From contig CM038467.1 in assembly GCA_021464415.1 (NCBI GenBank), positions 22,538,011 to 22,602,010 of the forward strand: a DNA stretch of 64,000 nt, in the 5' to 3' direction. A model generated the notes under the pieces. The model saw only the letters and a list, made by a program, of their open reading frames with translations. It did not search any database and had not been told where the DNA came from. Shown piece by piece: positions 18,401 to 60,845 of this stretch; position 1 is the stretch's first letter, and each line of letters opens with the position of its first letter. The position numbers and the translations under genes were made by a program. Origin of the DNA: Lonicera japonica. Its lineage: Eukaryota; Streptophyta; Magnoliopsida; Dipsacales; Caprifoliaceae.

Positions 18401-21107
18401 AATGCAGGATTCACCACTAATCCTCCTCCATATTGAGGAGCCAAAGGATCGGGCAAACACTAAAAATTAAAAAAAAAGACAAATTGTATATATAAATTCC
18501 ATTAATGAACCGAAGTATAGATAACAAAAATTACTGTACGTATTGCCGAGTATCCGTTATTAATATTTATTAGCAAAAGGAAAATGTCTTTCAGTGGCAA
18601 AATGTTTAGGAGCAAAAGCCATCAATTTGCCACTATAAGATAAGTGACATTCAGTGGCAAAATATTTGAGAGCAGACAAATTCATCACTGAAAAGGATGT
18701 ATTCGAGTTACATAAGTATTAAGTAGCAATGAATGCATTCTAACATTGCGACTATGGTTGGGAAAATATGAGTTTTACTGATGATTTGGGAAGCGAGAAA
18801 AGAACTGCCATTGAAATGTTTTATGACGAAATGTTTTCTTTACGATATTTCCAAGAGACTCACCGCTTGAAATATGTTCTCTATAATAAATATGTTCTGT
18901 ATAATAGCTAGTTAACTTAATAAAATCATGCTTCAACGGATTATGTATCAAGATAGAGTAGAGTGTTGTTATACGCTCTAGATTTGGAGAGCCAGTTTGA
19001 CCCTCTATTTACTATTCTTTTATTAAAATAACAATTTTATGTCAACAATTATATTTTAATGATCATATTCTCTTTCCTTCTCACAATATTTCTTTAATAC
19101 ACAGAAATCTCATGTGGGAAGAAAAAGTGCTAGCTTTCTATCTTTTGAATATGGAGTCTTTAATAATAACTAAATAATTTATAGAAAAATAAAACAATTT
19201 GATTATTTTATGGAAGGGATAATACTCTAATTTTTAGTATAATAGTATTGATTTATTTGAGTTTATTGTTTAATTTTAATTAATGTATAACATACTTACA
19301 TTAAATTTGGTTATATTTATAGTTGGCATCATAAATAAAAGGAATATTAAAAATAATTGAACAATGTCGAATAAATAGTAATAAAATAAAATAATAAAGA
19401 ACATTGTTAGAGTTTGTAATTAAAACTCTCTATTCTAAAAGATGATTTCTAGTTTAAAGAATATATTGTCTAAACTAGAGAGCATTGTTGGAGTTGCATA
19501 TATTTACCACCGAAGTCCAAATTCTAAATCGATCCCTAATTCTAGTAGTAAATGATTTCACCCAACCCAGATATGGAAGTTTCAAGCTGTCCGTGCAACA
19601 ATTTTTCCTCTCTTAATGTATAGTATCTATAGTATATAAGTAAAATGAAGGAAGTCCCACCATTAATGCATAATTAATATGTGATTAATGTAATTAATTT
19701 GCTTCTTTTTTTTTTAAGCTTTGCTCCATAATTACGTCGTTTGACCTATTTATTGAGTTTATATATATATATATATAAAATAAGAGAAGTGAAAGTATTA
19801 ATGCACCTTCTTTTTTATAATTAATTAGGCAATAAATAACACACTTAATACCATACTTTAATAAATAATTAATTATTCACCTTAATAAATAATATAATTA
19901 TAATTATTATCTATACTATATAGTGTTAGGAAGGAAGTAGATACATTAATTATTTTTCTTATATTTTTAATTGTAGTAACATTAATTACTTATTAATTGA
20001 TTTTTTATATTCTTAATGCATAATAAAATAATAATAATTATTAAAATATTGGAAGTAACTTCATTTATTATACTATTTTTTTAAAATGTATTAAATTAAT
20101 AGTCTTATTTTCAGTTTGTCATAGCAAATGAGTTGTATTATCAACCATTAATTAGATTGAAATTAATATTTTCTTAAAAATAATAAAGTAAAAGTTGTAA
20201 AATTAATTTTAAACGAAGGCAATATATATTTTATTCTCCTACACAACATATTAAAGCCAATTATTTGTCAAACATATTAAGACAAACACTACTAAAATTG
20301 CATATTTATCAAACACCCGTGCATCGCAAGGGTTGTTAACTAGTATTTTGTTATTATAAATGAAAAGAAAGAATAAAGAGGATGAATATTCATACCTCAA
20401 CGCTGGTTGAGTAATCGTAAGTCAAAGCCTCAATCTCATAATATCCTACACATGACAAAAGAGGTGAAACTTCACATTCAGCGCATCAAAATGATAAAAC
20501 CGAAGATAACTTTTTTTAACATAAATAGATTTCATCTGAAAGAGAACCGTCTTCTATTTAGGAAAAGGAAAGACTGTTGATTTGTATTTGTAGTGTTAGA
20601 TGTACGGAATTTTTAATAAAATTTGTTGGAGATGATTTTCGTAAATCATTGCCACAAATTTCATTAGAAAAATCAATCTAGAGTGCGAACAATGAAAATT
20701 TGATATACATGTGTTTTTGGTTTTTATGATCATCTCATTTATTTTTAGAAGTTATACCATAGGTTCATATTTACCTCTTTAAATAGAAGGTCCTCCCTCT
20801 TTAGAACAAGACTGTTATACTAATGTTATATTACTTTTTTTTAGCAAACTTCTTGTTTGCAGCAAGTGATACACCAACTAACATCTCAAGGTTCAAGTGA
20901 GGTTTTTACTATTAAGATAACACACTCGCTAACCTATATTAGATTTTTGAATTAAGAGAAAAAACAGATAAATATTGCTATAGCTTATACTTTGTCATGT
21001 TTAGAAAAATAAGACAGAAAAAGAATTACAAAACGTCAGTACTACTACCAACCTGCAAAAATTACAGAACATAGCAGTATAAAAAAGCCCCTTTTAGAAA
21101 CCTTCAT
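15477..21107 (-). CDS. Endo-1,4-beta-xylanase, GH10, secreted
   Basis: GH10 xylanases cleave the beta-1,4 backbone of cell-wall xylan with retention. Coding exons (minus strand): 21107-21053, 20445-20396, 18459-18237, 18077-17911, 17769-17671, 17204-16419 and 15821-15477. All junctions are GT-AG and stay in frame, giving 574 aa. Residues 1 to about 22 are a signal peptide (MKVSKRG, then a hydrophobic stretch FFILLCSVIFA). Residues about 40-190 match the carbohydrate-binding module (CBM4/9-like) found in plant xylanases. The GH10 barrel starts near 200. The acid/base Glu is E346 in IAWDVMNENL and the nucleophile Glu is E451 in WLTELDV; both are present, so activity is expected. The start ATG opens the signal peptide; an AG acceptor at 21114-21115 suggests a 5' UTR intron upstream. 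Intron 2 (about 1.8 kb) carries a Helitron and intron 5 a SINE-like sequence. Confidence 0.94.
17290..17400 (-). mobile_element. SINE-like tRNA-derived fragment
   Basis: On the minus strand the sequence reads agttaccccaatggttttg, resembling a Pol III box A. About 35 bases later comes ggggttcaattcctg, a good box B (GGTTCRANNCC). It lies in xylanase intron 5. The tail and target duplication were not resolved, and it does not fold as an intact tRNA gene. Confidence 0.5.
19910..20343 (+). mobile_element. Helitron, non-autonomous, in xylanase intron 2
   Basis: The 3' end is typical: a short hairpin acccgtgc-atc-gcaagggt followed a few bases later by CTAG and a flanking T (20340-20344). The 5' end TCTATACTATATAG starts at 19910 after an A, giving the expected insertion between A and T. 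A second similar 5' start, TCTATAGTATATAAG, lies at about 19629, so the element may be longer or two copies may be nested. There is no coding capacity. Confidence 0.72.
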
Positions 21108-30341: not shown

Positions 30342-33300
30342 ATGCAGGCGCGCCCACTGAGAAGGCTATCCTCAGCCACTATCCCCCTCAAGAAGAGGCT
30401 CCATCACAATGGTATAATTCTTCCTCGCGCCATTTATTTATTTATTTATGTATGGATATGGTGATTATTGTTACTATTGGGTTAGAATTTTATGAACCCT
30501 AGTTAAAAGTCTGTGATAGAATATGGAAAGAATCATCCTTCGAGGCAATTAAACTAGTTTAATTTATTAGATTTTTTTTATCAAGAAGATTAAGAAAATA
30601 AATAAATAAAATTCTCTGGTAGTCAAAATAATGATGACATAATTTCAACAAAGCTGAACAGCTTCTATGTTTTTGCCTGCTTTCCGATTAGAAATAATGA
30701 ATTCTCAGAAGAATCAGTTTTTTTCGCCTGCATAGTATTAGACTGTAGTATCGGTCTACTTGTGCTTACATGTAGTATCTTAGACTTGTTCGATTTTGTA
30801 TATACACTGGCGCATGAAGAACTGCGCTATGTTATGCATGCATAGCTTTAGCCAATTCAATTGTTGTGATATTTGTTCCCTTTTTTTTCTCTTGAGAAAT
30901 TGTTATATCGTAGCCTTATCCGTATATGTTTGTATATCAGAGGAACCAGAATATGAGGAACTTGCGGTTGATAAATCAGAGAGGGTGGAGATCGAATATA
31001 ATGAGGCCTATTTGGAGGAGGAAGAGGATGGCTGGAAAAATCGAAGAGCGAATTGGGAGATGGAAAGAATAAGAGACGAAGAAGAAAGGAGCGAAGAAAG
31101 GAATTCAGGAGGATACATGAGGGACGGCGAGGATGAGGAAGTGGATGTGGATGTGGATGTGGATGTGGAAGTGGACGGGATAAATTATAGAGACGAGCAT
31201 CGTGCAGAAATGGACGGGTTCAAAGAAGTTCGTAGAGATGCTGTCAAAGAGAGGAGGAAACGGAACGAGTACGAGATCTTTGTTGGGGGATTGGATAGAG
31301 ATGCTGATGAGGTGGATCTTAGGGAGGTTTTCGGTGCAGTGGGTGATATTACAGAAGTGAGGCTCATGAAGAACCCGATAACTAACAAGAATAAGGGCTT
31401 CGCTTTCATTCGATTTGCAACTATTGATCAGTGCAGACGTGCTGTTAATGAGCTTAAGCATCCAGTGGTATGAATCGACCTCTCACTCGTTTTAGTGTCC
31501 ACCTATTTGTTTCCCGTGCCAGTGAAGATTGATAATTCCTCCCATTATTTGTTACGTACAGTGGTGGATCCAAGATTTGGAATACGGGGGGCCAAAACAC
31601 AACATAAAAAATGTGACAAGAAGTTTCAAAAAAATATATTTTAATTAAGAAGTTTTTTACATATATTTTTGTAGTACAAAAGGCATTCTTTTCGCGTGAA
31701 TCTACAATAAGTATAAAAGTAACTAGACAATCTTGATTTAACTACTAAACTTAGGCATCATCAGTTGCGCTTGACGATTCTTCATCCCACAAAATTCATT
31801 TATGATTGTATCAATGTCGAAGCACCGAGAAATTTCTTTCTCAATATATGTGATCAAGTAATTTGCAAGATAATCATCTTCTACAACCACTTAAATTTAT
31901 TATATATTTATAATATAAATAATAATGGGTATAACTATTGACACTCCATAAATTTTTTTTAACACTCTAAAATAATTTTTAGAGATAATTTTTTTTTATA
32001 ACAAAATAAAAAATGCATAATTTTATTTAAAGAGTGCCAACAACTATATTTATATAAAAAAAATACTAATACTAATGGAGGTTTGAAATATCTTGGGGGG
32101 ACCAGGTTCCCCCTTCCGTCTGCCACTGGTTACGTATCCATTTATTAGTTGTGGATATGTTTCACTATGCCTAAAATCAATTTTATCGGAAAGGCAAGTC
32201 TTTTAATTCTATGTGCCGGTTACAGGATAACGGGAAAAATATGGTAATCTAAATAGTGATTGAGGTCATTTTCAAAATGATTTCCCCAAAATTCATTCTA
32301 ATGGCAGATATCTGCTTTGAAATCTCATCCTTCAAGGAACTCAATTTCAAGTTCAATCTACTCTGTTTACCCAAAAAGAATTTCATTCCATCTTAGACAA
32401 CACTTTTTCACATGTGAATGTATCTTACTTCCAGTGATTGAGATTGCAATTCTTAGGCACATACATCTGTTTTTGACATATTCTATTATTCTAGGGATTG
32501 AGATCCATTTTCCCATGTAGTACAAGAGTAAGAGTTGATCAAAATCATATAACCGTGGATTTGTATTGTATTATATCCTTGTTCCACTTGTTCATGCAAC
32601 ATGCCTAATGATTAACTTTCAGATTAATGGGAAGCAATGTGGAGTGGCTCCAAGTCAAGACAGTGACACTTTATTCATTGGTAACATATGCAGGACATGG
32701 ACAGAGGAAATTGTATGTTATTTGAAACTTCAGTGCCTTTCGAGTTTGTAACCAGTTTTTACCAATGATATGTATGTATTATAAATTTTAAAATGGGGAT
32801 TTTGCGTTTACAGCTAAAGGAAAAGCTTGTACGGTACGGTGTTGAAAATTTTGAGGAGGTGACTTTGGTTGAAGATACAAAAAATGAAGGCATGAATAGG
32901 GGATTTGCTTTCCTGGATTTCTCGTCTCGAGCAGCTGCAGTGGAAGCTTGCAAGCGTTTGCAGAAGAGAGATGTGGTGTTTGGCACAGATCGAACAGCTA
33001 GAGTTTCATTTGCAGACACCTTTATTGAACCTGATGATGAAATCATGTCACAGGTATGTTTTTGCTTCATGTTTATATCTTCTACTTGTACAGTTCCCTT
33101 TAATAAAACAAATACTGGTTTATACATTGGAAAGCAACCAGTAATAATGGTGAAAAGGACAGGTGTTTGTACGCATCCGTGTCTTACAATTTAGCGCATC
33201 GTGTCTTATTTTAATTATTTGTAATAATTTGAAGGATAATATGTTTGAGCAAGTGGGCTAGCCTAGTTGGGAGAGGCACCCACTTGGACCGGGGAGAGAT

Positions 33301-36300
33301 CCTATGAAGCATAGACACGACATGTGACTCGCGTTCTGACACGATAAGCGAATTGCAATTTTTCCAAAATGTTGGATACGACTCTTGGTGGGATGCGTTC
33401 TTAATTTTATATATATATGCAATAAACATTGTAGATATTTAAGAATTCAACAAAATGAAACTAGATTGCATTAATAATCTAAATACTCAAAACATGATTG
33501 CTGTCACCACTCACCACATGATTAAAGCATCAAAAAGTATACATAGACTAACTTGTTCCTTAGAATGATAGAAAACAAAAGGGGAATATAGAGATAATAA
33601 TCACAAATCGACTCAACATCACTAAGTCGACCTTTTTATGTTTGAGAGAGAGTAGCGTACCTTGAATATTTTTTACGGGAGAGAACACGATTGGGGAGGT
33701 TACAGGAGATGTGAGAAAGTTAAATCCTTTTTATGTTCTTTTATTATTGTTTGAAACCTCAATATTTTTAGTCATTTCAGATTTTGACCCCTTTTTAGGT
33801 TTTAATATTTAAAACACCTCCAATGTCTCGGGATGTGTTGTCCACGTATCGGGATTTTAAAATAATAATAAGAAATACGACACTTTGCAACTTGCGTGTC
33901 GGCCACGTATCGGAGTGTGTCGCGTGTCAGACACGTGTTAGTAGCGATACGTGACCTCCGGGGAAGTGTATTTGCTTCATAGGAGTGATCCCAGGTTCGA
34001 GTTTCACCAACGGGGTGTTGGGGGTGATTTTCATTGTTTGTAGTTAAGGGAAGAGATTTAGACCTTTTTTTTTTTTCAAGAAAAAGAGGATAATATGTTC
34101 CACTTGTTCTTATGGCTTCCAGGTCAAGACTGTATTTATTGATGGTCTGCCTTCGACTTGGGAAGAGGACCGCATCAAAGAGCATCTAAAAAGGTTTGGG
34201 AGGATTGAAAAGGTCGAGCTTGCTCGGAATATGTCTGCTGCCAAAAGAGATGATTTTGGTTTTGTAACATTCTATTCACATGATGATGCAGTGGCTTGTA
34301 TTGACGGAATTAATGATTCTGAGATTGTGTCTGGAAGTAAGAAGGTATATTGTTTTTCTCTGCACGATATCTAATATACAGGACGTCTTTGTTCTGAGGC
34401 AGAAATTCTGTTCATGAACTTTCTATTAGGTCAGTCATCAGTGTAATTGTTGCAAATCTCTTTTTATTAGTGTTCTAATAGACACTTGGTAGTTGGGGGA
34501 TGGGTGCATGGTAACGGGGCTATACCAAGTGGGGATGGAAAACGATCCAATCTATCGGGCTTTTGACCCAACCTGACCCTAATGGGCGGGTATGGGTTCT
34601 ACAATAAAATCCGGCATGGGTACAAGCCGGGTTTGGGTTTGCGTAAATTTAACCCATTTGACCTGGCCGACTCGAATATAATACTCGTCTTTAAACACCC
34701 TTACAATATCATATAATTACAACAGGTTGGGGCGGGTCAAGGCGGGGCAGTTTCAGGCTTACACATATCATAAATGGGGCGGATTTTTCAAAACAAATCC
34801 CGCACTGGGATTGGGTTCAGGTTTGGCCAAAGCCGGCCACTGCCATCCCTTACCAAGCCTAGGTTCCCTAAGTAGGGACTTTCAAAACACTGAAATTGAT
34901 TAGTTGTAAATAATAAATATGACAATTTGAAACCACTCTATCCAGCCTAATATTCCCAAGCCAATTGTTGCGGGGACTTAATTAGGCAATCTGGCAGGCT
35001 GCACCCTGACAACTAGACAGTGTCTAGTCAGCCCTAGGCTCTGGGCTTTTGGAATGCAGCTCAGTATGTTTCATGATCTTGGCTCTTAGGATCTTCGCTT
35101 GATGAAAATATTTGATTTTTGTAGATGAAGGTACGGGCGAGGTTATCTAGGCCTCGCCAAAGAGGTAAGTCGGCTAAACATGCTCGCGGGGGTTACCCAG
35201 TTGGACACGTCGGTGGTCGGGGTGTCGATGATTCATGGGGCTCTGGTAGGTCCCGAATGGAGAGTTTAAGGTTCGTGGGCCATGATGAAAGAGGCATTCC
35301 AAGCCGTCGGATGTATGATAGAGATCTTCCTCGGTCGTTAGATTATAGAGATAGACGCGCCTCTGGGGAATATATTGCTGATAGAACTGGAAGCAGAAGG
35401 GAATATTCTCCCCCTGATAGATCTTTCAAGCATAGATCTACTGGTATGTTATTCCTAACTGTGTTGACAATTATACCATTTTCTTAGGGCCGTTTGGTTC
35501 TGTAAAATGCCTAATTTGAGGGACAACCAATGGCCCTTCAGTATAGTCTTGGCTAATTGTTCTGGATTTGGTTCCTTTGGACAGTTTCATCTTATGGACA
35601 GAGTAGCTTAAAAAGAGACAACATGCGGCAAGATGACTCTTTTGCTAGGCCGGCCGGTTTTGCTAGGGCTTCAAATGAGAAGCAGTCCTACAGAGATGCT
35701 TATATTTCGCACTCATCCGAGTACTTGGAAGATTCTCCGAGAAGAGGTTCTCGTGTTGCCACTCGTAGAATTTCTCCACTTTATGATGATGAAAGATACG
35801 GATATATGGAGCATTCCTCAAGCTATCCCGATAACCGTAGCCGTGATTACAGTTCTATTACTCGCTTAAAACGTCCCTATTCATCAATGGTCAGTTGTAT
35901 TCTACTATTTTGTTTTTCTTTAGTTATTGGGGGTCTCTTTGATTGCGCTCGTTTTCCGTTGAAAGTGCTCACAATTCATTATTTTCATCTGTATTGGGGC
36001 TTTATTCCATTAAATTATCTGAGGAATCAATTTCCATGGTGAAACTTTTTTCAAACTAAATTGTCCTTGTAAATATACAAAAAAAAGCACCCTAATATTG
36101 TTTCTTGTTCCATACTGATATCTTCACCCATGATTATTATAGGAGGAAGCTCGTCCTCGTTATGTGGAATCATCAATTAAGCAGTCAAGAGCCCGTTTAG
36201 CTTATGTGGGCAGCTCTGCTCCCACCTACACCGACGGTTCTTACGAGGATGATTCTGCAAGGTTATCATTTTCCCAAGTACCTTTTTTTACCGTATTTTT

Positions 36301-45765: not shown

Positions 45766-46406
45766 TAACCTGTGGTCCAAGTTATTTGTTTTGTTTTGGT
45801 GCTAAGTTTTTCTTCCGTAATTTATAAGTTGTTTCTTTCTTTTTCTCCCTTTGGTTTTAATTCGTTAGCCAACAGATTTGGGCTTTTCAAATTTATTTTT
45901 TTATTAACATTTTATTGTAAGCCTGCTTTTTAAGATCTAGAACTATCATAGAGATATATAAAAAAGATTATAACATGTGGTCCAAGTTACTTTACTTGGT
46001 ACATGCATATAAAGCCGAAATGCGCACATGTGGTCTAACTCTAATATCTCACGTTAAAAAATTGAGATAATGGGTTATAAGGTCTCGCTCCGTAATGTGT
46101 TGTAATTCTAAGGACGGATTCATGTTTAATAAAGAGAAGTAGTACTAATTTCATAATTTGGTTTTACAATAAGGACACTTTTCATAATATTAATTTATTT
46201 TAAGGAAAATGATAAATGTTGATGGACAAAACTACCCTACTATATCATTTATTCTAATTATACAAAAAACATATTATTCTCTCTTACATACACATAGTTT
46301 AGAGAGAGAAAACAAAAAATAAGAGAAAAGAGAAGTTGTCTCACCACCACCACCACCACCACCACCACCTTACTCTCCGATCGTATCTCCGAGAGGATCA
46401 TCGTTC

Positions 46407-46438
<32 letters not shown>

Positions 46439-46825
46439 TTCTTCTTCTTCTTCTTCTTTTCTAGATCTACAATACTAAAACATATATAACTTTTGATCAA
46501 ACCGTTGGATTTGGCTAATTTTTGGATATGTTGTTCGGAAGACAAAGTTACTATTATTGCGCGAAAAATTAAGACGATCAGAAGTCGTTTTGCTATCGAA
46601 ATCGATCAATTTTGACAGCCCAGCGAGATTTGAAAAAAAAATATGATTGTAACTCTTTTTTTTTTTTTTTTACAAACCCTACGTCGATCCATATTTATAT
46701 ACATATAAATAAATTGAGTGGATGTTGATCTCATCAATTTTGTTGTTCTCTATTTTGTAATGGTTCTAAAATTCACCTTTTGATTTGTTGTTCAAGTGAT
46801 GTTATCTTATGGTTGTTGTTCAGAA
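45766..46825. other. Intergenic with stacked microsatellites
   Basis: Consecutive trinucleotide runs occur at 46342-46370 (CAC), 46403-46436 (ATC) and 46437-46458 (TTC). They produce artefactual poly-amino-acid frames. A T homopolymer lies at 46656-46671. No gene seen. Confidence 0.7.
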
Positions 46826-47450
46826 GGTGCTAAATGCATTTAGCACCTTCTGGTTGTTGTCTAGATGGTGCTAAATGCATGTAGCACCCTTTGGTTACTG
46901 TCCAGATGGTGCTAAATACATTTAGCACCTTCTGGTTGTGGTGCTTAATGTATTTAGCACCTTCTGGTTGCTGTCCAGAGGGTGTTAAATGCATTTAGCA
47001 CCTTCTGGTTGCTCTCTAGAGGGTGCTAAATGCATTTAGTACCTTTTGGTTGTGGCGCTAAATGCATTTAGCACCTTATTGTTGCTGTCTAGCGGGTGCT
47101 AAATGCATTTAGCACATTCTGGTTGTGGTGCTAAATGCATTTAGCACCCTCTGGTTGCTGTCCAGGGGGTGCTAAATGCATTTAGCACCCTCTGGTTGCT
47201 GTCTAGCTGGTGCTAAATGCATCTAGCACCCTCTGATTGCTGTCCAGCGGGTGTTAAATGCATTTAGCACCATCTGGTTGCTGTCCAGGGGGTGCTAAAC
47301 GCATTTAGCACCTTCTAGTTGCTGTCCAGAGGGTGCTAAATGTATTTAGCACCTTCTGGTACTTTTTGGTTGTAGTGCTAAATGCATTTAGCACCCTTTG
47401 GTTGCTGTGCAGGGGGTGCTAAATGCATTTAGCACCTTCTGGTTGCTGTT
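46826..47450. repeat. Palindrome minisatellite, 16 units
   Basis: Sixteen head-to-tail units carry ggtgctaaatgc-atttagcacc, a 22-bp perfect palindrome in the consensus. A spacer like ctctggttgctgtccaggg gives a 41-bp unit in most cases. About four units have a shorter spacer (ttctggttgt) and are 32 bp. Most point differences are single changes within the palindrome. The unit has no open frame of interest. Confidence 0.95.
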
Positions 47451-47602
47451 GGTGTTATAATGAGACGATATTATAAGGAAGGGGTATTAGTGTCTTTTTT
47501 GTATAGTGTCCTTAATTTACATAGCTAATTTTTAAATGTCCTTTATAATTATATTATTATTATAATGAGCCCTTATACCTAATTGCCTCTAAAAAATTTT
47601 AC

Positions 47603-47754
47603 TGTTAGAAAAATAAAAGAGAAGAGAGATATTAGAGAAATTGTGTATTTTTTTTTGAATAAATAAATCAATACAATGAGATCCTTTATATAGGGGTATA
47701 TATGAGTATAATTTTGGTAAATGAAAAACCCTAATTCTCTATACCATAATTACA
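47603..47754 (-). repeat. 3' LTR of the copia element
   Basis: Begins TGTTAGAAAAATAAAAGAG and ends ataattaca on the plus strand. A T run (tttttttttg) replaces tatcttg of the other LTR. Confidence 0.9.
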
Positions 47755-48955
47755 AGATTGAGATGAGATGGATATGAGACGAAAATACTGAAAGCGACCT
47801 GGTGGATGAACTTTAGTGAATATGTTGGCGGATTGATCTATGGATGAGATGGATATGAGACGAATGTTGTTGCTAGACACATATATGCTGGCGAATGAAG
47901 TGACAATCAATCTTAATATGCTTTGTCCGTTCATGAAAAATATCATTATGAGCAATCTGAATAGCACTTTGATTATCACACCTAAAGATAGTTGGAAGAT
48001 GTTGAGAAACTCCCATGTTCGAGAGGAGCCAGATGAGCCATACGATTTCTTGAATGGTGTCAGCAAGAGCACGGTACTCTGCTTCTATACTTGAGCGGGA
48101 AACTAGTGATTGTTTCTTGCTACGCTAAAATATGAGTGAATCGCCCAAGAAAATACAGTAATCGGTAGTTGACCGTTTATCAGTTGGATCACCGTCCAGT
48201 CAGAATCAAAATAGGCACGAAGCTCAAGGGATGACATAGATGAAAACTGAAGATCGTGAAACATTGTCCCTTTGAATATATCTGAAAAATGTTGAATAAC
48301 AGTAGTATAATGAGTGGACCGTGGAACAGACATGAACTGACTAACGATGTGAACGACATGGGCAATATCCGGGCGAGTGACGATGAGATAGACCAGGCTG
48401 CCAACTATTTGTTGATACAAAGTGGCATTACTAAGAAGAGTACCATCAAGATGAGTAAGTTTAGTACTTGGTTCCAACGGAGTAAGCACAATTTTACAGT
48501 CAGTAAGACCTGCACGAGCAAGAATATCATAAGCATACTTAGCTTGTGAGAGATAGTAACCAGCAGAGTCAAATAACACTTCAAGACCCAAAAAATAATT
48601 TAGACGGCTGAGATCCTTCATCTCAAAGTGACAGGTTGAGAGATTATTTGAATTCAGAAATACCGCTAGTATCATTTTCAGTAATAATCATGTCATCTAC
48701 ATAAAGAACTAAAAGTGTAATACCAGTAGCCCTCTTTCTGATGAAGAGCCCACAGTCATGAACACTAAAGGTGAAGCCCAGTGTTTGAATGGTAGAACTA
48801 AACTTTTTAAACCAAGCACGAGAGGCTTGTTTAAGACCATATAAGGCACGGCGGAGCTTGTACACTTGAGATAAGGAGTGAGGGAACCCTGGAGGAGGTT
48901 TCATATAAACTTCTTCTAAAAGATCACCATTTAGGAATGCATTCTTCACGTCCAT
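47731..48955 (-). pseudogene. Copia reverse transcriptase and RNase H remnant
   Basis: From 48955 downward the minus strand encodes [20 protein letters not shown], then [15 protein letters not shown] and the YVDDMI catalytic box of reverse transcriptase (about 48710). After a frame change come YFLGLEVL and LVYLIVTRPDIAHVVHIVSQF. The RNase H end reads SANIFTKVHPPGRFQYF near 47800. Frames shift around 48660 and 48090. A 22-bp direct repeat at 47762-47783 and 47843-47864 appears to have duplicated the end of the coding region. Confidence 0.85.
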
Positions 48956-49959
48956 CTAAAAAAGTTTCTATTTTTGAATAGCAGCAACAGTGAGAAGGAT
49001 TTGAACAGAAGTTAAACGAGCAATAGGGGCAAAAGTTTTCTCGTAATCAATGCCGTATTCCTGATTAAAACTTTTTACAACAAGTCAAGCCTTGCATTGA
49101 TCGATGGATCCATCTGATTTTGTTTTAATTTTATAAACCCATTTACATCCAACTATTGTCTTTCCTGGGGGAAGAGTGAACAATTCCCAAGTTTGAGTTT
49201 TTTCTAAAGCTTGTAATTCCTCAGACATCGTTGGCTGCCAGAATGGGTTAGAAATAGCCTATTTATAAGAAGAAATGTTCATGGTGAGAGAAAATAGTGG
49301 AATAACAGTGATAGTCACGAAGATGATGAGGAAGTTGTCTTACCCATGTGGACTGGCGGGAGTGGATTGTCTAGCCGGATCGTTGGACGAGTCATTGTCA
49401 TGAGGATAGTTCCGCTATAGGCCCAAGAGATGGATTGGGGGATGAACTAGAATTCAGGGGTTGGGGAAGTAGAGTCAGTGATGAAGAAAATCTCACTGGA
49501 TGGGATGGAGTCAGAAGGTGCCGTTCTAGGTGTGGACGGAATAGATGTGTTGAAATGATAGAAATAGCCAGTGAAGCTAGTGAAGAAAGGGGTAATGGTA
49601 TTGTTTGGGACTTGGAATTTGGAAATTAATGAAAACATTTTGTGTTCCCAAAATATGACATGACGAGACACACGAAGTCATTTTGAAATAGGATCCTAAC
49701 ACCTATAACCTTTGTGTTTTATCCCATACCCTAGGAAGTAACATAGACGTGAACGAGGTTCGAGTTTAGAATGTTCATGAGGCTGGAGTAAGACAAAGCA
49801 GGCACATCTAAACACTTTTAGAAGGTTATAGTTAGGTGCATTGCCATATAACCTCTCATAGGGTGATTGATTTTGGAAGGTATGAATAAGATGGCGATTA
49901 ATGGTGAAAATTACAGTAAGAGCTGCTTCCCTCTAAAAACGTTCGAGACACCCATTGGA

Positions 49960-50869
49960 TATGAGAAGAGTGCGAACAGTGTCTAAAATATGACAGTGTT
50001 TTCGTTCAGCATGACCGTTTTGTTGAGATGTATCAGGACAAGAGTACTGAAAAATCGTGCCTTACTGACGTAAAAAATTTAGAAAATTGGATTCTTTGTA
50101 TTCCATGGCATTATTAATATGAAAAATTTTTGATTGGTCGAGAAAACTGAGTTTGGACCATTTAAGCAAAATTGCAATATAGCTGTGGTAGTTTAGAACG
50201 ATTTTTTATGAGAAATATCCATATAAAGCGGGTGTAGTTATCTATAAAAACAACAAAGTATTTTGATCCCACCATAATATTATGAGGAGAAGGTTCCCAT
50301 ACATCAGAATGAATAAAATCAAAAAATGCAGAAGAAATGGAATTACTTTTATTAAAAGATAATGCGGGTTGTTTTTCAAGTTGACATGACAAACATGAAA
50401 TGATTTCTGACTTAACAATTTTTAATCGACCAGTAGAAACAAGAGTTCTAAGCCTATCAACAGACATATGATATAACCGAGAGTGCCAAAGTTCCAGAGA
50501 TGAGATGGGAAAGGTGGGAGGAGCAGCAGTAAGAGTAGAGGTTGGAACATCTGGTGGTGTGCGAAGGTGGATAAGCTTGAACATGCGACCAACTTTACGG
50601 TCTATCCCAATAACCTGTTCTGTCCGTGGATTTTGTACATGACAATCAAAAGAAGAAAATAGAACAGTAAGGCCAAGATCACAGAGTTGTCCAACAGATA
50701 TGAGATTAATAGTCAATTTAGGTATGTGAAAAGTAGAGGAAAGAGATAAAGTGGATGTGGATACATGGCTAATGTGGGTGACATGTAATTGAGATCCATC
50801 AGCAGTTTTAATAGGAGATGTGACTGTGGTAGAATTTTTGGAAAGAAAAATTGTGGAATCAAAAGTCAT
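49960..50869 (-). pseudogene. Copia protease end and integrase remnant
   Basis: The minus strand encodes LWHSRLYHMS...CLSCQLEK (HHCC zinc-binding arrangement), then FDFIHSDVWEPSP and FVVFIDNYTRFIWIF, which carry the first two integrase aspartates. Further down, near 50030-49990, QQNGHAERKHCH carries the expected glutamate region. Reading frames are broken between these blocks and toward 49000. Confidence 0.8.
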
Positions 50870-50947
50870 GTGATTACATCAGCCAGAATCAAAATACCAA
50901 AAGGTACTTGGAATTGCAGACATTGCATTAGATGAACCAGACAAAAC

Positions 50948-51771
50948 CTATTTTAACATGTCAGCAAGATCATTATTGGTGACGGATGTAGGTGAACTAG
51001 GTGGCAATAGATTGGAAGCGGCAGCAGTGACGAACTTGGTATTAGTTTTTCTGGTAAGATTCTTGTAGCAATCAGAACCCCAATGTTTTGGCCCACGCTT
51101 GTGACAGTACTTGTACACTCGTTTGGGACAATAGAATAACATATGGGTTGTTTCATAGAAATATGTGCATGCATCGGATGATTTCTTAAATTTTGAATGA
51201 GTAATTGCAAGTACTTCGTTCGAATTTTGAGAGTTTGTACCAAGCTGAGTTTCTTTAAAATAGAGTGCGGTAACAACATCATCAAGGGTTGGTAAGGGAT
51301 TGCGATGCAAGAGAGAGGCTCGGACAGTCTCAAACTTGTTATGAAGGGCCATTAGAAAAGTCATTACTTGCTGCTAACCTCTGTAACTTAATGAATTTGG
51401 CAGCATCAGTGGAACATGACCAGACTGGTTCTGAAGAGGCCAGTTGATCCCAAATGATTTATATTTCAGACAGAAAATTCATCAATGGTTTGACTAGGCT
51501 GTTAGCGTTTGGCATGAAGAGCAGTCAGCAGTTGGTACTGGTGAGCAAGATCCTTGGTGGTGTATCTAATTTTCAAGAAATCCCAAACTTCATTTTCGGT
51601 GGAAAAGCACTTAAATTGTTGATTGATGGTAGGAATTGAGGTATTTCGGTACCAAGTGATAATATCACCATTTTTGGCAATCCAGTCATCTTGCGTATTA
51701 GCAAAGTTTTCATTTGATTTTTCTTTCTTTTGGATTGGTTCGGTAACCTCTCCTGTAATAAGACACCACAC
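50948..51771 (-). pseudogene. Copia gag remnant
   Basis: Two overlapping pieces cover the gag region: VWDFLKIRYTTKDLAHQYQL, then LLHRNPLPTLDDVVTALYFK. The zinc knuckle reads VYKYCHKRGPKHWGSDC, in which the usual first cysteine is replaced by tyrosine. A frame break lies near 51,500-51,370. Confidence 0.8.
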
Positions 51772-52119
51772 TCTACAGGCTTAAAGGAAACTAGTCATGG
51801 CTTGAGGCCTAGTAAATGTAGTTGTACCCATTAAGGGTGATGGAAATGGGTCGAGAGATTTTAGTACGTTCCATTGACTTGGGCTAGAGGTTGCTGGATG
51901 ATGTGAATGTAATTGGATAAGGTTGAAAGTTTTTTCTTTTTGGTTGAAAATGGGAAAGACAGAAAGTTTGGGAGTTAATATGTGAAAATCAGAAACTTTT
52001 GGGGCTAAAATATAAATAACAAAAATATCTAAGGGTCAAATATGAGAAAATCAAAAACTTTTAGGGCCAAAATATAAATAACAAAAATATCTGGGGGTCA
52101 ATATGTAAATAATATAAAA

Positions 52120-52330
52120 CTTTGGCTTACATATGACGTAGTGCTGACGTGGATTGGTCAACGCTGACGTGGACTGGTCAATGATGACGTGACTGGTCAA
52201 TGTTGGCGTGGACTTGTGACGTGGCTAATGACTGGATGGGATGATGTGGCGCTGACGAGACTAGTCAACTCTGACTTGGATTGGTCAAACGCTGACTTGA
52301 CTGACATGCAGATGCTGACTGGCTTAGGCG
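52120..52330. repeat. Short degenerate repeats in the copia leader
   Basis: Between the 5' LTR and gag the phrase tgacgtggactggtcaa and variants recur about seven times at roughly 20-bp spacing. It lies in the untranslated leader of the element on the minus strand. Confidence 0.75.
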
Positions 52331-52702
52331 CGTGGGTTAAGGCGGGACGCTAACGAGAATTACACGCGCCGCGCGTGAAGGCGCGCGGGTGATTATTTTG
52401 AGGTATTTTTGGACGCGTGGAATCGTCTTTATGGGACGATGATGATAGTGGCGGTTGGATGTGGATTGGGATAGGTTTGGATCGGGCAGTGGGTTTATAC
52501 AACTATGGGACTGGATTATTTCTATGTGTTTATGGATCTGGATTTATAGGCAGTGGATATGGGATGATAAAGGTGATTCTGGGTGATTTACGTGGCTTTG
52601 GTGATGGTAGTAGGTTTGATGTTTTTGGATTGGATATTTAGATAGTGGTGGTAGAAAAATGAGCCGTGGAGTTGGTGAAGGAATAAAAACACTCTGATAC
52701 CA

Positions 52703-52852
52703 TGTTAGAAAGATAAAAGAGAAAAGAGATATTAGAGAAATTGTGTATTATCTTGAATAAATAAATCAATACAATGAGACCCTTTATATAGGGGCATACA
52801 TGAGTATAATTTTGGTAAATGGAAAACCCTAATTCTCTATTCCATAATTACA
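52703..52852 (-). repeat. 5' LTR of the copia element
   Basis: Begins TGTTAGAAAGATAAAAGAG and ends ataattaca on the plus strand. The primer-binding site abuts it at 52691-52702. Confidence 0.9.
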
Positions 52853-52862
52853 AGATTGAGAT

Positions 52863-54044: not shown

Positions 54045-54345
54045 ATTAAAAACCCAACTGCTTTATTTATTTACAAAATTAAAAACCCAACTGTTTTTAA
54101 TACTGTTTTTAATTAAAAAACCCAACTGTTTTTTAATTAAAAAGCCCAACTGTTTTTTAATTAAAAAGCCCAACTGTTTTTTTTTTAATTTAAAAACCCA
54201 CCTGTTTTTTTTAATTATATAAAACCAACTGTTTTTTTTTATTTAATAAACCAACTGTTTTTTTTTAATTTAATAAACCAACTTTTTTTTAATTAAAAAA
54301 CCCAACTGTTTTTGTAATTTAAAAAACCAATTGTTTTTATGTAAA
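54045..54345. repeat. Tandem repeat, about 30-bp unit
   Basis: About nine loosely conserved copies of cccaactgttttttaattaa occur in a row, with variable T-run and A-run lengths. The sequence has no coding content. Confidence 0.85.
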
Positions 54346-56427: not shown

Positions 56428-59400
56428 ATGGGTGAAGCAGAGGAGGAAGAATGTGCGTTGAAGGGGAGTGAAGGAGTGTATTTGACATGGGAAAAGCTAA
56501 AAGTGAGAGTTGGTTCAAAATGTATACTTGAAGGGATTAGTGGGTATGCTAGTCCAGGGGAGATTGTTGCCATCATGGGTCCTTCTGGTTGTGGCAAATC
56601 CACTCTTCTTGATGCTTTGTCTGGTAACTCTATTCTACTCTACTTTTTTCCTTTTAAGTCCATATGGACAAATCTTTGATTTTATCAATACTAGAAACAT
56701 GGCACACGCAATGCGTGTGGGTGCCTGGTTTTAATGCAAACAAAGATAGAAAAAATAGAAGGCAAATGTTAAACATAGATCAAACCGTAAGGTAGTATTT
56801 AGCCAACAATATGGTGATAGGGGTAAAATAGAAAAACCACTAAAATTTAGCGTTATAACCAAGTTCTCAATTTATATATAAGTTTTATGATATGAATTTT
56901 TTTTCCTTTTCTTTTATTTTTGGTGGGTGGTTGGGGGGAGGGGGTTGTGAAATCAATGTAAATATTGGAGGTAATTAAGACGTTATTTGAGACCTAATGA
57001 AAGCATTAGTTCTCAAAAAAGCATGTTTACTTTATTTTTTACCATCAATTATTTTTCTGTAAATGAATTCCGTTTGATTATAACATGAACAATGATTAAG
57101 AAAAATAACTATTTGTGTGATAGATAGAAAATAAGTCGAGACATGTGACAAAATGCTCTCCATTTCTTGCTCATATTTTTAGTATATACCCTCCATATTT
57201 CATTATTTTTTGTGAAAAAAATTTCTTTCTTACCCCTGCAAAGGAATTTTCCATGGAAAAAGCCAAAAAGGAAGATTTAATTTCACCACATGTCTCAACT
57301 TACTTCCCAACTTCTCACACAAGTTAATTATTTTTCCTACCATTTTACACGTTGCTATTAAACACAGCCGAAATGCGTGAAAGGCAGACAGTGACACTTA
57401 ATTTTGGAAAGAGGTAGTCTAAGATTTGTCCAAAGGGTTCAATTGGGAGCGAGTTAGTGTCCTTCATGATTTAAAATGCAATAGAATTGTAGACAACTAG
57501 ACATTACATGTGTTCCCAATTTTGTGTAAAATATATTGGTTGGGAACCAAAAAGTCCAAGCTACTTTCAGCCACTGATTTGCCAAAATTTCTTTATATTT
57601 TGTCCTTCCACAGCATATCAAGATTCATAATTGAACCCTTTCTTATGCTGCACTTTTTGTTGTTGAGCTTCAATGGATACATACATCACTCCTCAAAAAA
57701 TAACAAGATCGTTTTTCATCAACCAATTTTCCATTATTTTGAGGAGTACCATTAATTATCATTTAAGCTGCCAAAATATTCACTTGTGAATTTTAGTTTT
57801 ATCAATATACACCTCAGAAGTAAAACTCATAGTACCAATGTACTTGTTTTAGGGCGGTTGGCTTCAAACACACAACAAACTGGAGAAGTTTTAATCAATG
57901 GGCATAAGCAGCGATTAACATATGGAACGTCGGTATGTAAAACCCTTGTCCTCCCCTAATTGAAGGCGTGTTTGTTTTTACCTCTTGATCCTAATTAAAG
58001 GTCTACTCAGCATTAGCCCATTAGGAGGTTTCATTCCGCATAAACGGCTAAACATTCGAGTGACATTTGTTTTCTTGTTTGAATTTGAAGTCTAAAATCT
58101 AAATCTGAAAATTCTGTTTGTTTCCAATTTATACAAACTACTTCGACCTTTTGCCCTTCTTTTTATCTCTTAAACTAGGACCAAAAGAGTTGGGTGGCAA
58201 AATTGTATTATGCAACCATATAGACTTCATTAATCACATTAAGAGGTAGGAGAGAGCCTCTTAATGATTCAGAGGCATATTAGGAGGTTATTTCTGAATT
58301 TTTAACCAAAATGAACACCCTTAACTCACCTCTGAAGTTTGAATTATATGTGGTCATTCAGACTTTAAAGTGTCAAAATATGCATACCCTTACCATTAAG
58401 AGGTAAATCCACCTTGCCAAACAACCCCTAATCGAGAGAGAGAGAGGGGAGGGGGGTGTTAAAACTTGATCTCCAATTTGATAATCATCCACTTGTTTTT
58501 TCATCACTTTAGGCTTATGTGACTCAAGAAGACATTCTAACATGGACACTAACCGTTAGAGAAGCCGTCTACTACTCAGCTGAGCTCCAACTCCCTAACT
58601 CAATGACGAGAGCAGAGAAAAAGGAAAGAGCCGAACGGACCATAAGGGAAATGGGCCTACAAGACTCCATCAACACAAGAATAGGAGGATGCGGTACCAA
58701 AAGCCTTAGTGGAGGCCAAAAAAGACGAGTAAGCATTTGCGTAGAGATTTTAACACGTCCAAATCTTCTCTTCCTTGATGAACCAACAAGCGGGCTTGAT
58801 AGTGCGGCCTCATACTACGTAATACGCCAAATCAAAAAACTCGCACAGCAATATGAAATGACGGTTGTAGCCTCCATTCATCAGCCTAGTAGTGAAGTCT
58901 TTGAGCTCTTTCATAATCTCTGTCTTCTCTCTTTGGGTAGGACCGTATACTTCGGTCCGTCTCTTGAAGCAAATGAGGTGATTTTATTGCTTTTGTTGAT
59001 GATAATGATAAAAGTATTTTGTTAACAAACATGAGCTGACTATTTACTCTTACTTGTTTTGATCCAAATTAGGTTTTTGCAATGGCTGGTTTTCCTTGCC
59101 CGGCTCTACAAAACCCCACGGATCACTACCTTAGAACAATAAACACGGATTTTGATGAGGTTGGTTAGCATTTTCTTTTAGAAGTTATATGTAGTTTTGG
59201 ATTCTGCCAAAGCAAATTATGCTTTATGATGTTGTAGCATATGCCTTAACTTGGTGCATATTGCTCAGGCAGAAGCCTAAACTGCATTGGAATGCTTGTT
59301 ATGTTGCACAGTACTTCAAAGTATATTAAATTTATTCGTCCCATTTTATGTTATTAGGACATTGAACAGGGTGTTGGAGGCAAAATGACCACAGAGCAAG

Positions 59401-60845
59401 TTATTGATGTACTTGTAAAAAGCTACAAGTCATCAGATACTTTTAGACAAATTCAAAGCAAAATAGCCGAGATTTATAGACAGGTAATGAACCAAATAAT
59501 TCAATTAATTAAAAGTCCAAGCAAAACGGAAACCATTGTTTCAAGTTATAACTAACCTTGGCATGGTCTGTATTTACTTGCAGGATGGAGGGGTAATGGA
59601 GAAGATGGGGAGCCAAGCTAGCAAAGTTACTCAATCCCTTGTTCTCACAGAAAGGTCATTTGTGAACATGTATCGTGATAAGGGCTACTACTGGTTACGT
59701 CTTGCTATATACATTGCACTGGGCTTAGGATTAGCAACTGTTTTCTTAGATATTGGTTCGGGTTATGACTCTATCCGCGTAAGTTTATCTTATAAAGATC
59801 TAACAAGAGTTGTTCACATGAGTTTGTTTTGACTTCATAAGAAACCCACGCTATCTTTCTTAATGGTACAGGAGAGAGGATCAATGCTCATGTTTGTAGC
59901 TTCATTCTTGACGATAATGGCCATTGGCGGTTTCCCTTCATTTGTAGAGGATATGAAGGTTAGTAATATTATTTAACATCAAGGAAAATGCTACTCACAC
60001 TCCATATTTAATAACCACCTTTTATATAAACTAATTTGGCACCAATCAGATGAACTTTTTGGACAATGCCTTTAATGTTTTGTCCTTCTCTCTAGTGTCA
60101 CATTAGTTTGTATAAAACTTTTAAGTATGTTTAAAGTTAACTATCTTATTACCATTATAATTAGGTGTTTGCACGAGAGAGACTAAATGGTCATTATGGG
60201 GCAGGAGTGTTTGTAGTTGGCAATACACTTTCATCAATGCCGTATTTGCTTGTCATCTCTTTGATACCTGGAGCAATAATCTACTACCTCGTTGGACTTC
60301 AACGAGGTAACGAAAAATTTGTCTACTTCATACTTGTACTTTTCGCATGTATGATGCTGGTCGAGAGCATAATGATGATAGTAGCAAGCATGGTCCCTAA
60401 TTTCCTCATGGGCTTGATCACCGGGGCTGGAATCCAAGGCCTAATGATCCTAAGTGGTGGATTTTTTCGACTGCCAAACAATCTTCCCGCTATTTTCTGG
60501 CGATACCCGATGTATTACATAGCCTTCCACAAATACGCGTATCAAGGATTGTACAAGAATGAATTTGAAGGTCTTAAATTTCCTAATCATCAATTAGACG
60601 GGCCACCATTTATTGATGGTAATATGATTTTGAAGGATATTTGGCAAGTTGAGATGGGATACTCAAAATGGGTTGACCTTGGTATCTTGTTTGGGATGGT
60701 GGTTTTGTATAGGCTATTGTTCTTTTTTATTATTAAGATTGTTGAAAGGGTGAGACCTATTGTTAGAGAGGTCATTGTTTCTCTTAGGAGAACAAAAGGG
60801 GTTATTGGGTTTTCTTGGTCCAAACATTTAGAAGCAGCAAAATAG
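56428..60845 (+). CDS. Half-size ABCG (WBC) transporter
   Basis: ABCG half-transporters dimerise in the plasma membrane and export lipids such as cutin, wax or suberin precursors, or other small molecules. Coding exons: 56428-56623, 57853-57932, 58513-58977, 59073-59159, 59358-59483, 59584-59778, 59872-59958 and 60165-60845. All are GT-AG and in phase, giving 638 aa. The nucleotide-binding domain comes first: Walker [10 protein letters not shown] (51-59), Q-loop Q97, signature LSGGQ (157-161), Walker B LLFLDEP (177-183), D-loop SGLDS and H-loop His215. About six membrane helices follow from residue 340, with [20 protein letters not shown] and [20 protein letters not shown] as typical ABCG motifs. 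By wording it belongs to the ABCG11/ABCG1-like clade; substrate unknown. No key residue is missing. Introns 1 and 2 each carry a MITE. Confidence 0.95.
57066..57371. mobile_element. MITE, family A copy 2, in ABCG intron 1
   Basis: The left end ttccgtttgattataacatg and the right end, read inward, cggctgtgtttaatagcaac form a loose inverted repeat. Shared interior words (agatagaaaataag, ttccatggaaaa) link it to 26-308. Boundaries are approximate. Confidence 0.55.
57964..58427. mobile_element. MITE in ABCG intron 2
   Basis: The flanking 8-mers ctaattga (57956-57963) and ctaatcga (58428-58435) differ by one base. The ends are aggcgtgtttgtttttacct and, read inward, gggttgtttggcaaggtgg. Both ends carry tacctcttaatgg-like words, also seen in 14-3-3 intron 1. 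It fills most of the 580-bp intron. Confidence 0.6.

Follow-up and report, generated by a model that had tools for sequence, protein, structure and literature searches.

The palindromic array and its host element

The window analysed here is a 64,000-nucleotide stretch of Lonicera japonica DNA in which 16 units matching the core GGTGCTAAATGCATTTAGCACC at up to 3 mismatches follow one another at 46826-47436 (0 matches across 100 shuffles), as many tandem units as a preliminary description of this DNA had counted. Tandem Repeats Finder delimits the array at 46806-47449 with a period of 41 and 16.3 copies and reports a second, higher-order period of 114 bp (5.3 copies) that equals 41+41+32, in line with the higher-order duplication that had been suspected from the presence of two unit lengths. 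The mixture of these lengths is itself apparent from the unit-to-unit intervals, 11 of 15 of which measure 41 bp and 3 of 15 measure 32 bp, with a single one of 42 bp. The claim that every unit is a perfect palindrome did not hold, since perfection over 22 bp is limited to 4 of the 16 units (1, 9, 10, and 16), while one pair is broken in 11 others and two pairs in the remaining unit. The symmetry often runs past 22 bp, to about 17 bp per arm, and the 41-bp unit can be read as arms CCAGAGGGTGCTAAATG / CATTTAGCACCCTCTGG (34 bp) plus a 7-nt spacer, with the 32-bp units equal to the 41-bp unit minus 9 bp (outer arm and spacer). Cruciform formation leading to fragility or rearrangement is conceivable for tandem palindromes with few broken pairs, but the arms measure just 11-17 bp and the genome tolerates sites by the thousand, and we give this explanation next to no credence.

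The preliminary description had treated the array as an intergenic minisatellite, but it does not stand alone: it forms the middle of a 1,526-bp element at 46064-47589, which ends in 23-bp inverted repeats and is flanked by a perfect target duplication of 9 bp. The features of the locus are as follows (coordinates, strand, feature, and basis).

46055..46063, no strand: left target-site duplication TAAAAAATT (duplication comparison)
46064..47589, plus strand: non-autonomous Mutator-like element, 1,526 bp (ends, 9-bp duplication; at least one flank conserved in 18 of 18 C1 loci)
46064..46086, plus strand: left terminal inverted repeat GAGATAATGGGTTATAAGGTCTC (end comparison)
46826..47436, no strand: palindromic array, 16 units, core GGTGCTAAATGCATTTAGCACC, proposed docking sites (motif matches, palindrome scoring, core-versus-spacer constraint)
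47160..47179, minus strand: exact match to the u821189/u3868172 primer (string match)
47567..47589, minus strand: right terminal inverted repeat, complement of GAGGCAATTAGGTATAAGGGCTC (17 of 23 positions shared with the left; end comparison)
47590..47598, no strand: right target-site duplication TAAAAAATT (duplication comparison)

The window element itself is non-coding and its termini read GAG...CTC. In the 12 loci with perfect duplications, the 23-bp terminal inverted repeats (TIRs) are alike at 11-17 of 23 positions. These inverted ends and 9-bp duplications identify a non-autonomous Mutator-like element, present in L. japonica in many near-identical copies, and the array lies inside it. 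Two other assignments were rejected. For a CACTA element there is a lone, chance-level CACTACAA match within the array, and the GAG...CTC termini and the duplication argue otherwise; membership in the neighbouring copia element fails because its LTRs start 13 bp past the right end of the Mutator-like element.

This Ty1/copia-type neighbour occupies 47603-52862 on the minus strand, with LTRs at 47603-47764 and 52703-52862 that are 93.2% identical; its reading frames are broken, and the flanks (TTTAC vs CTCAA) give no evidence of a 5-bp duplication. Elsewhere in the window lies a further tandem array (54106-54338; AT-rich, period 24, 9.1 copies), and open frames at 30784-36042 and 58513-60845 resemble, by eye, an RNA-recognition-motif protein and an ABCG-type transporter, respectively.

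Copies and larger coding relatives

Genome-wide counts were made in the Lonicera japonica assembly (886,079,548 bases, 967 contigs), where the palindrome occurs at 19,139 sites at up to 2 mismatches, with 0 sites for the reversed control. This search of the whole assembly for the unit had been proposed in the preliminary description, and it found the unit dispersed, the outcome named there as speaking against the original reading; together with the ends and copies, these palindromes place the array within a dispersed transposon. The palindrome places listed among these matches are all held by 18 loci on C1, lying within its first 8.41 Mb. All 18 loci retain one flank of the window array or both, and both element ends were found in 13, with a perfect 9-bp duplication in 12 of these 13 and an imperfect one in L011.

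A search with the left end (237 bp) gave at least 40 copies, the window included; this number is a lower bound, as 40 of 2,220 first-look candidates were scored. All 40 are 99-100% identical over the left 237 bp, which suggests recent multiplication. Ten copies picked from the other 39 by their left end alone all contain the array, with 15-24 units each, so close copies differ in how many units they hold, which is in keeping with the preliminary description. Eight of these ten have both ends within the pattern's reach, each time with a perfect duplication; no right end was located in L036 and L037, the other two. Compared with the window, these eight are 98.7-100% identical over the right 150 bp, 92.6-95.9% over the left 750 bp (with gaps), and 87.3-95.6% in the array. 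A search of viral contigs gave no match.

We further examined three larger relatives, L023-L024 (11.2 kb, with flanking duplications unlike each other), L025, and L028-L029 (14.2 kb, with equal duplications AAAAAAATA). Transposase pieces score over the Pfam cut-off in L023 (MULE PF10551, 40.6; SWIM, 25.8; PF03108, 41.3 bits) and L028 (PF03108, 57 bits), and no Pfam family was called in the three frames of L025 that were scanned. DUF1985 matches in L023 and L028 (22.9 and 25.6 bits) are below the cut-off of 35.1, as are the matches to the plant mobile domain in both below theirs and a Ulp1 C48 match in L028 (19.1 bits, cut-off 20.7). Between the DUF1985-like exon in L023 and a Lonicera macranthoides protein, P0001, identity is 93% at 96% length coverage. 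All three large relatives have exons matching P0001, arranged in the same order; a structure model of P0001 (mean pLDDT 42.6) was too poor for use. With the family's own Pfam scores below cut-off, its link to DUF1985 derives from tblastn in a local set, in which four of five homologues match six DUF1985-model loci (E 1e-15 to 1e-24), four of these six loci exceeding that model's cut-off. Among other DUF1985 clades, neither the palindromic unit nor another array was found in the 6 of 23 hits checked, over 3.5 kb each. Two acidic, lysine-rich frames of large relatives (L022:6907-7569 and L017:9252-9524) have the peptide FDLNIDLS in common, which we take to resemble an EAR repression motif.

Each large relative has several separate palindrome clusters, which lie deep inside the element between the pieces of a DUF1985-like protein (in all three), of a Mutator transposase (in two of three), and of a weakly Ulp1-like protease. 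Not one of 100 palindromic units is centred in the coding segments of L023, L025, and L028, which were drawn from open frames and tblastx and make up 50, 25, and 44% of the respective spans. This arrangement bears on the idea that the palindromes bind transposase or another transposition factor, in the manner of CACTA subterminal repeats: retention of the array in non-autonomous copies would suit it, but clusters deep between coding pieces, and not just near the ends, make it very unlikely. It also bears on the proposal that the array is a neutral by-product of slippage in a palindrome-holding element, spread by transposition. The fast variation in unit number and the 114-bp higher-order period agree with such an origin, whereas several separate clusters per large relative, none of them in coding segments, do not.

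Constraint on the core and small RNAs of the repeat

Between neighbouring units, the core differs at 40 of 682 sites and the spacer at 92 of 589 (p=1.2e-8; 31 runs, each of three units spaced 41 bp), a comparison biased toward core conservation by the location of units via the core motif. The core consensus is identical in small (174 units) and large elements (118 units), and their spacers are unlike, a result open to the same bias. A core steadier than its spacer and shared between elements of both sizes while the spacers differ again counts against a neutral by-product, which we consider improbable.

In a sample of 219 units from 18 sequences (the window and 17 of the 18 C1 loci), both sides of a core pair had changed in 22 cases, more often than under independence (8.6), and 8 of these 22 still pair, with 7.3 (about a third) expected by chance. 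The preliminary description had rightly noticed changes falling in one arm only, and there is no RNA covariation in the 219 units. As compensatory changes are absent, it would be the sequence and not the pairing that is preserved, and the core fits better as a site read in its sequence than as an RNA helix held by pairing.

The 235 spacings between units peak at 32, 41, 53, and 62-63 bp, near multiples of 10.5 bp. In a post hoc test, the helical-phase fit of four spacings (32, 41, 53, and 63) was equalled by 42 of 30,000 random sets and, under a coarser null, by 148 of 5,000; there was no signal when the 43 distinct spacing values were each counted once.

Small RNAs from the unit had been suggested as well, and published primers support this. 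In the available part of PMC4961011, a table of 16 candidate reference RNAs of L. japonica gives GCATTTAGCACCCCCTGGAC as primer for both u821189 and u3868172, the latter recommended as a reference together with u534122, and GCACCCTCTGGACAGCAACC as primer for u312335. Three of the 16 primers thus match the palindromic unit, on the assumption that a primer equals its small RNA. The u821189/u3868172 primer, a 20-mer, has 582 exact sites in the genome (reversed control 0), one of them in the window (47160..47179, minus strand). That of u312335 has four window sites with one mismatch each, and 4 of the 29 sequences examined contain 8 exact sites between them. At up to one mismatch, 65 of 68 primer sites are antisense to the element.

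How such RNAs might arise is a separate matter. The array folds far more stably than 20 shuffles (z -29.7), which is compatible with the earlier suggestion of a multi-hairpin RNA. The u312335 primer, by contrast, spans the 7-nt spacer, whose pairing is 0-0.43 at 12 sites in the array self-fold, and the arm changes are non-compensatory. Hairpin biogenesis is therefore not favoured, and, if primers equal small RNAs, fully double-stranded RNA would be a likelier source than single-unit hairpins. A microRNA gene with a fixed hairpin duplex was rejected on account of the 582 dispersed exact sites of the 20-mer. Rfam gave 37 weak matches, all under the gathering score.

These data touch on a further alternative, in which the array is mainly a source of small RNAs: its transcripts would fold back or become double-stranded and be diced, the non-autonomous copies would silence the family, and the palindromes would be kept for RNA folding. 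The primer matches (one 20-mer with 582 exact sites), the very stable fold, and the strand bias of near-exact primer sites all speak for it. Compensatory changes are absent, however, and the u312335 primer crosses a mostly unpaired spacer. Moreover, small-RNA-directed methylation in VANDAL elements acts on VANC-target parts and gives small RNAs there too (PMC10398659, available text); small RNAs therefore do not discriminate between this reading and a VANC-like one. We judge a predominant role as small-RNA source unlikely, though less so than a neutral by-product.

At least five more primers in the part of Table 2 of PMC4961011 that is available (u30297, u1846379, u3817076, u2100564, and u534122) have ATATGAACTTTGC in common, which would point to a second repeat family as a source of reference small RNAs in L. 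japonica; the four distinct primers tried have no match in the 29 sequences examined. When the plant literature was searched with unit strings, the unit's own string was found in PMC4961011 and a resembling small RNA in PMC11478739, both as far as their available text goes; the remaining matches were short strings in articles on other subjects by title. The resembling small RNA is nsa-miRN10-5p of Nigella sativa (UUUAGCACCCCAUUGGACUUGU; compare honeysuckle TTTAGCACCCCCTGGAC), which may reflect a related repeat or chance. No description of the honeysuckle palindromic repeat was found in the available text of this literature, mostly outside subscription journals.

A proposed docking array and its known counterparts

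The reading that we favour, and consider probable on balance, is that the array is a docking array for a VANC-like (DUF1985-type) protein with an unusual, palindromic site, similar to VANC targets without being filed as a VANDAL. It draws on the Mutator-type ends and duplications, the retention of the array in 10 of 10 end-picked copies, the absence of units (0 of 100) from coding segments, the constraint on a core whose consensus is shared across element sizes, the lack of compensation, spacings near multiples of 10.5 bp, the VANC precedent, and the lack of the palindrome at six loci of other DUF1985 clades. On the other side stand DUF1985 and Ulp1 matches below their cut-offs, the three scanned L025 frames with no family called, the bias of core-found units toward core conservation, and a spacing test that is post hoc, weaker under the coarser null, and without signal over distinct values.

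Under the docking reading, the family's own VANC-like (DUF1985-type) protein would bind each palindrome as a site of two-fold symmetry, load on the dense, helix-phased sites and strip silencing marks off autonomous and non-autonomous copies. The repeats would also be a source of host small RNAs, which would probably serve RNA-directed DNA methylation, and slippage or unequal exchange would alter the unit number. A more specific version, which we hold at somewhat less than even confidence, is a TIR-bearing honeysuckle Mutator-like lineage with operator-like anti-silencing: DUF1985-type dimers would sit on 22-bp palindromes about 3, 4, 5, and 6 helical turns apart, facing one side of the DNA, and many non-autonomous copies would retain such platforms and supply small RNAs in abundance, including some taken for reference microRNAs. 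Motif density and helical periodicity reportedly matter for VANC targets, and non-autonomous VANDALs are said to be reservoirs of 24-nt small RNAs, both according to Sasaki 2022 (EMBO J).

In Arabidopsis, VANC proteins carry DUF1985, bind noncoding tandem repeats, and remove silencing; VANC21 binds YAGTATTAY motifs, which are tandemly repeated in introns and noncoding parts of VANDAL21, and the targets of VANC6 contain AGTTGTCC or AGTTGTAC (PMC5735166, available text). VANDAL21 (Hiun) and VANDAL6, as described in the accessible parts of PMC5735166 and PMC10398659, are thus like the honeysuckle family in being Mutator-like, in combining a DUF1985-type protein, putatively so in honeysuckle, with noncoding tandem motifs, in fast unit-number change, and in a small-RNA response on the same parts. 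Their motifs are short, one-way, and non-palindromic (YAGTATTAY, AGTTGTCC/AGTTGTAC), whereas the honeysuckle core is a 22-bp sequence that is its own reverse complement, and their TIRs are degenerate or absent, unlike the 23-bp TIRs found here; both differences weigh against docking. VANC21 binding is moreover taken from this literature, whereas honeysuckle binding is predicted from sequence layout. Some VANC genes have Ulp1 and are named KIU (Kaonashi; review PMC13317346, available part), to which the DUF1985-like and weak Ulp1-like pieces of the large relatives correspond; KIU elements are described there as non-TIR, and the honeysuckle Ulp1 match is below cut-off.

More distant counterparts are found outside these groups. 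Maize MuDR/Mu elements likewise have a 9-bp duplication and non-autonomous copies, while the honeysuckle element differs in its short TIRs and internal palindrome arrays. The maize MuDR TIR begins with GAGATAAT, as does the TIR of the honeysuckle element. In En/Spm, TnpA binding sites lie near the element ends. TnpA is comparable as an element-encoded protein on repeated sites that has been linked with demethylation (PMC10398659, available text), but En/Spm belongs to the CACTA superfamily and uses another protein family.

For work on L. japonica small RNAs, u3868172, one of two references recommended as best, corresponds to a repeat with 582 exact sites, u821189 has the same primer, and u312335 matches the same palindromic unit; the microRNA and reference status of all three needs re-examination. 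If the VANC-like protein does bind the palindrome, VANC-like anti-silencing would reach honeysuckle and a TIR-bearing lineage, and the symmetric site would ease testing how a VANC-type protein reads DNA.
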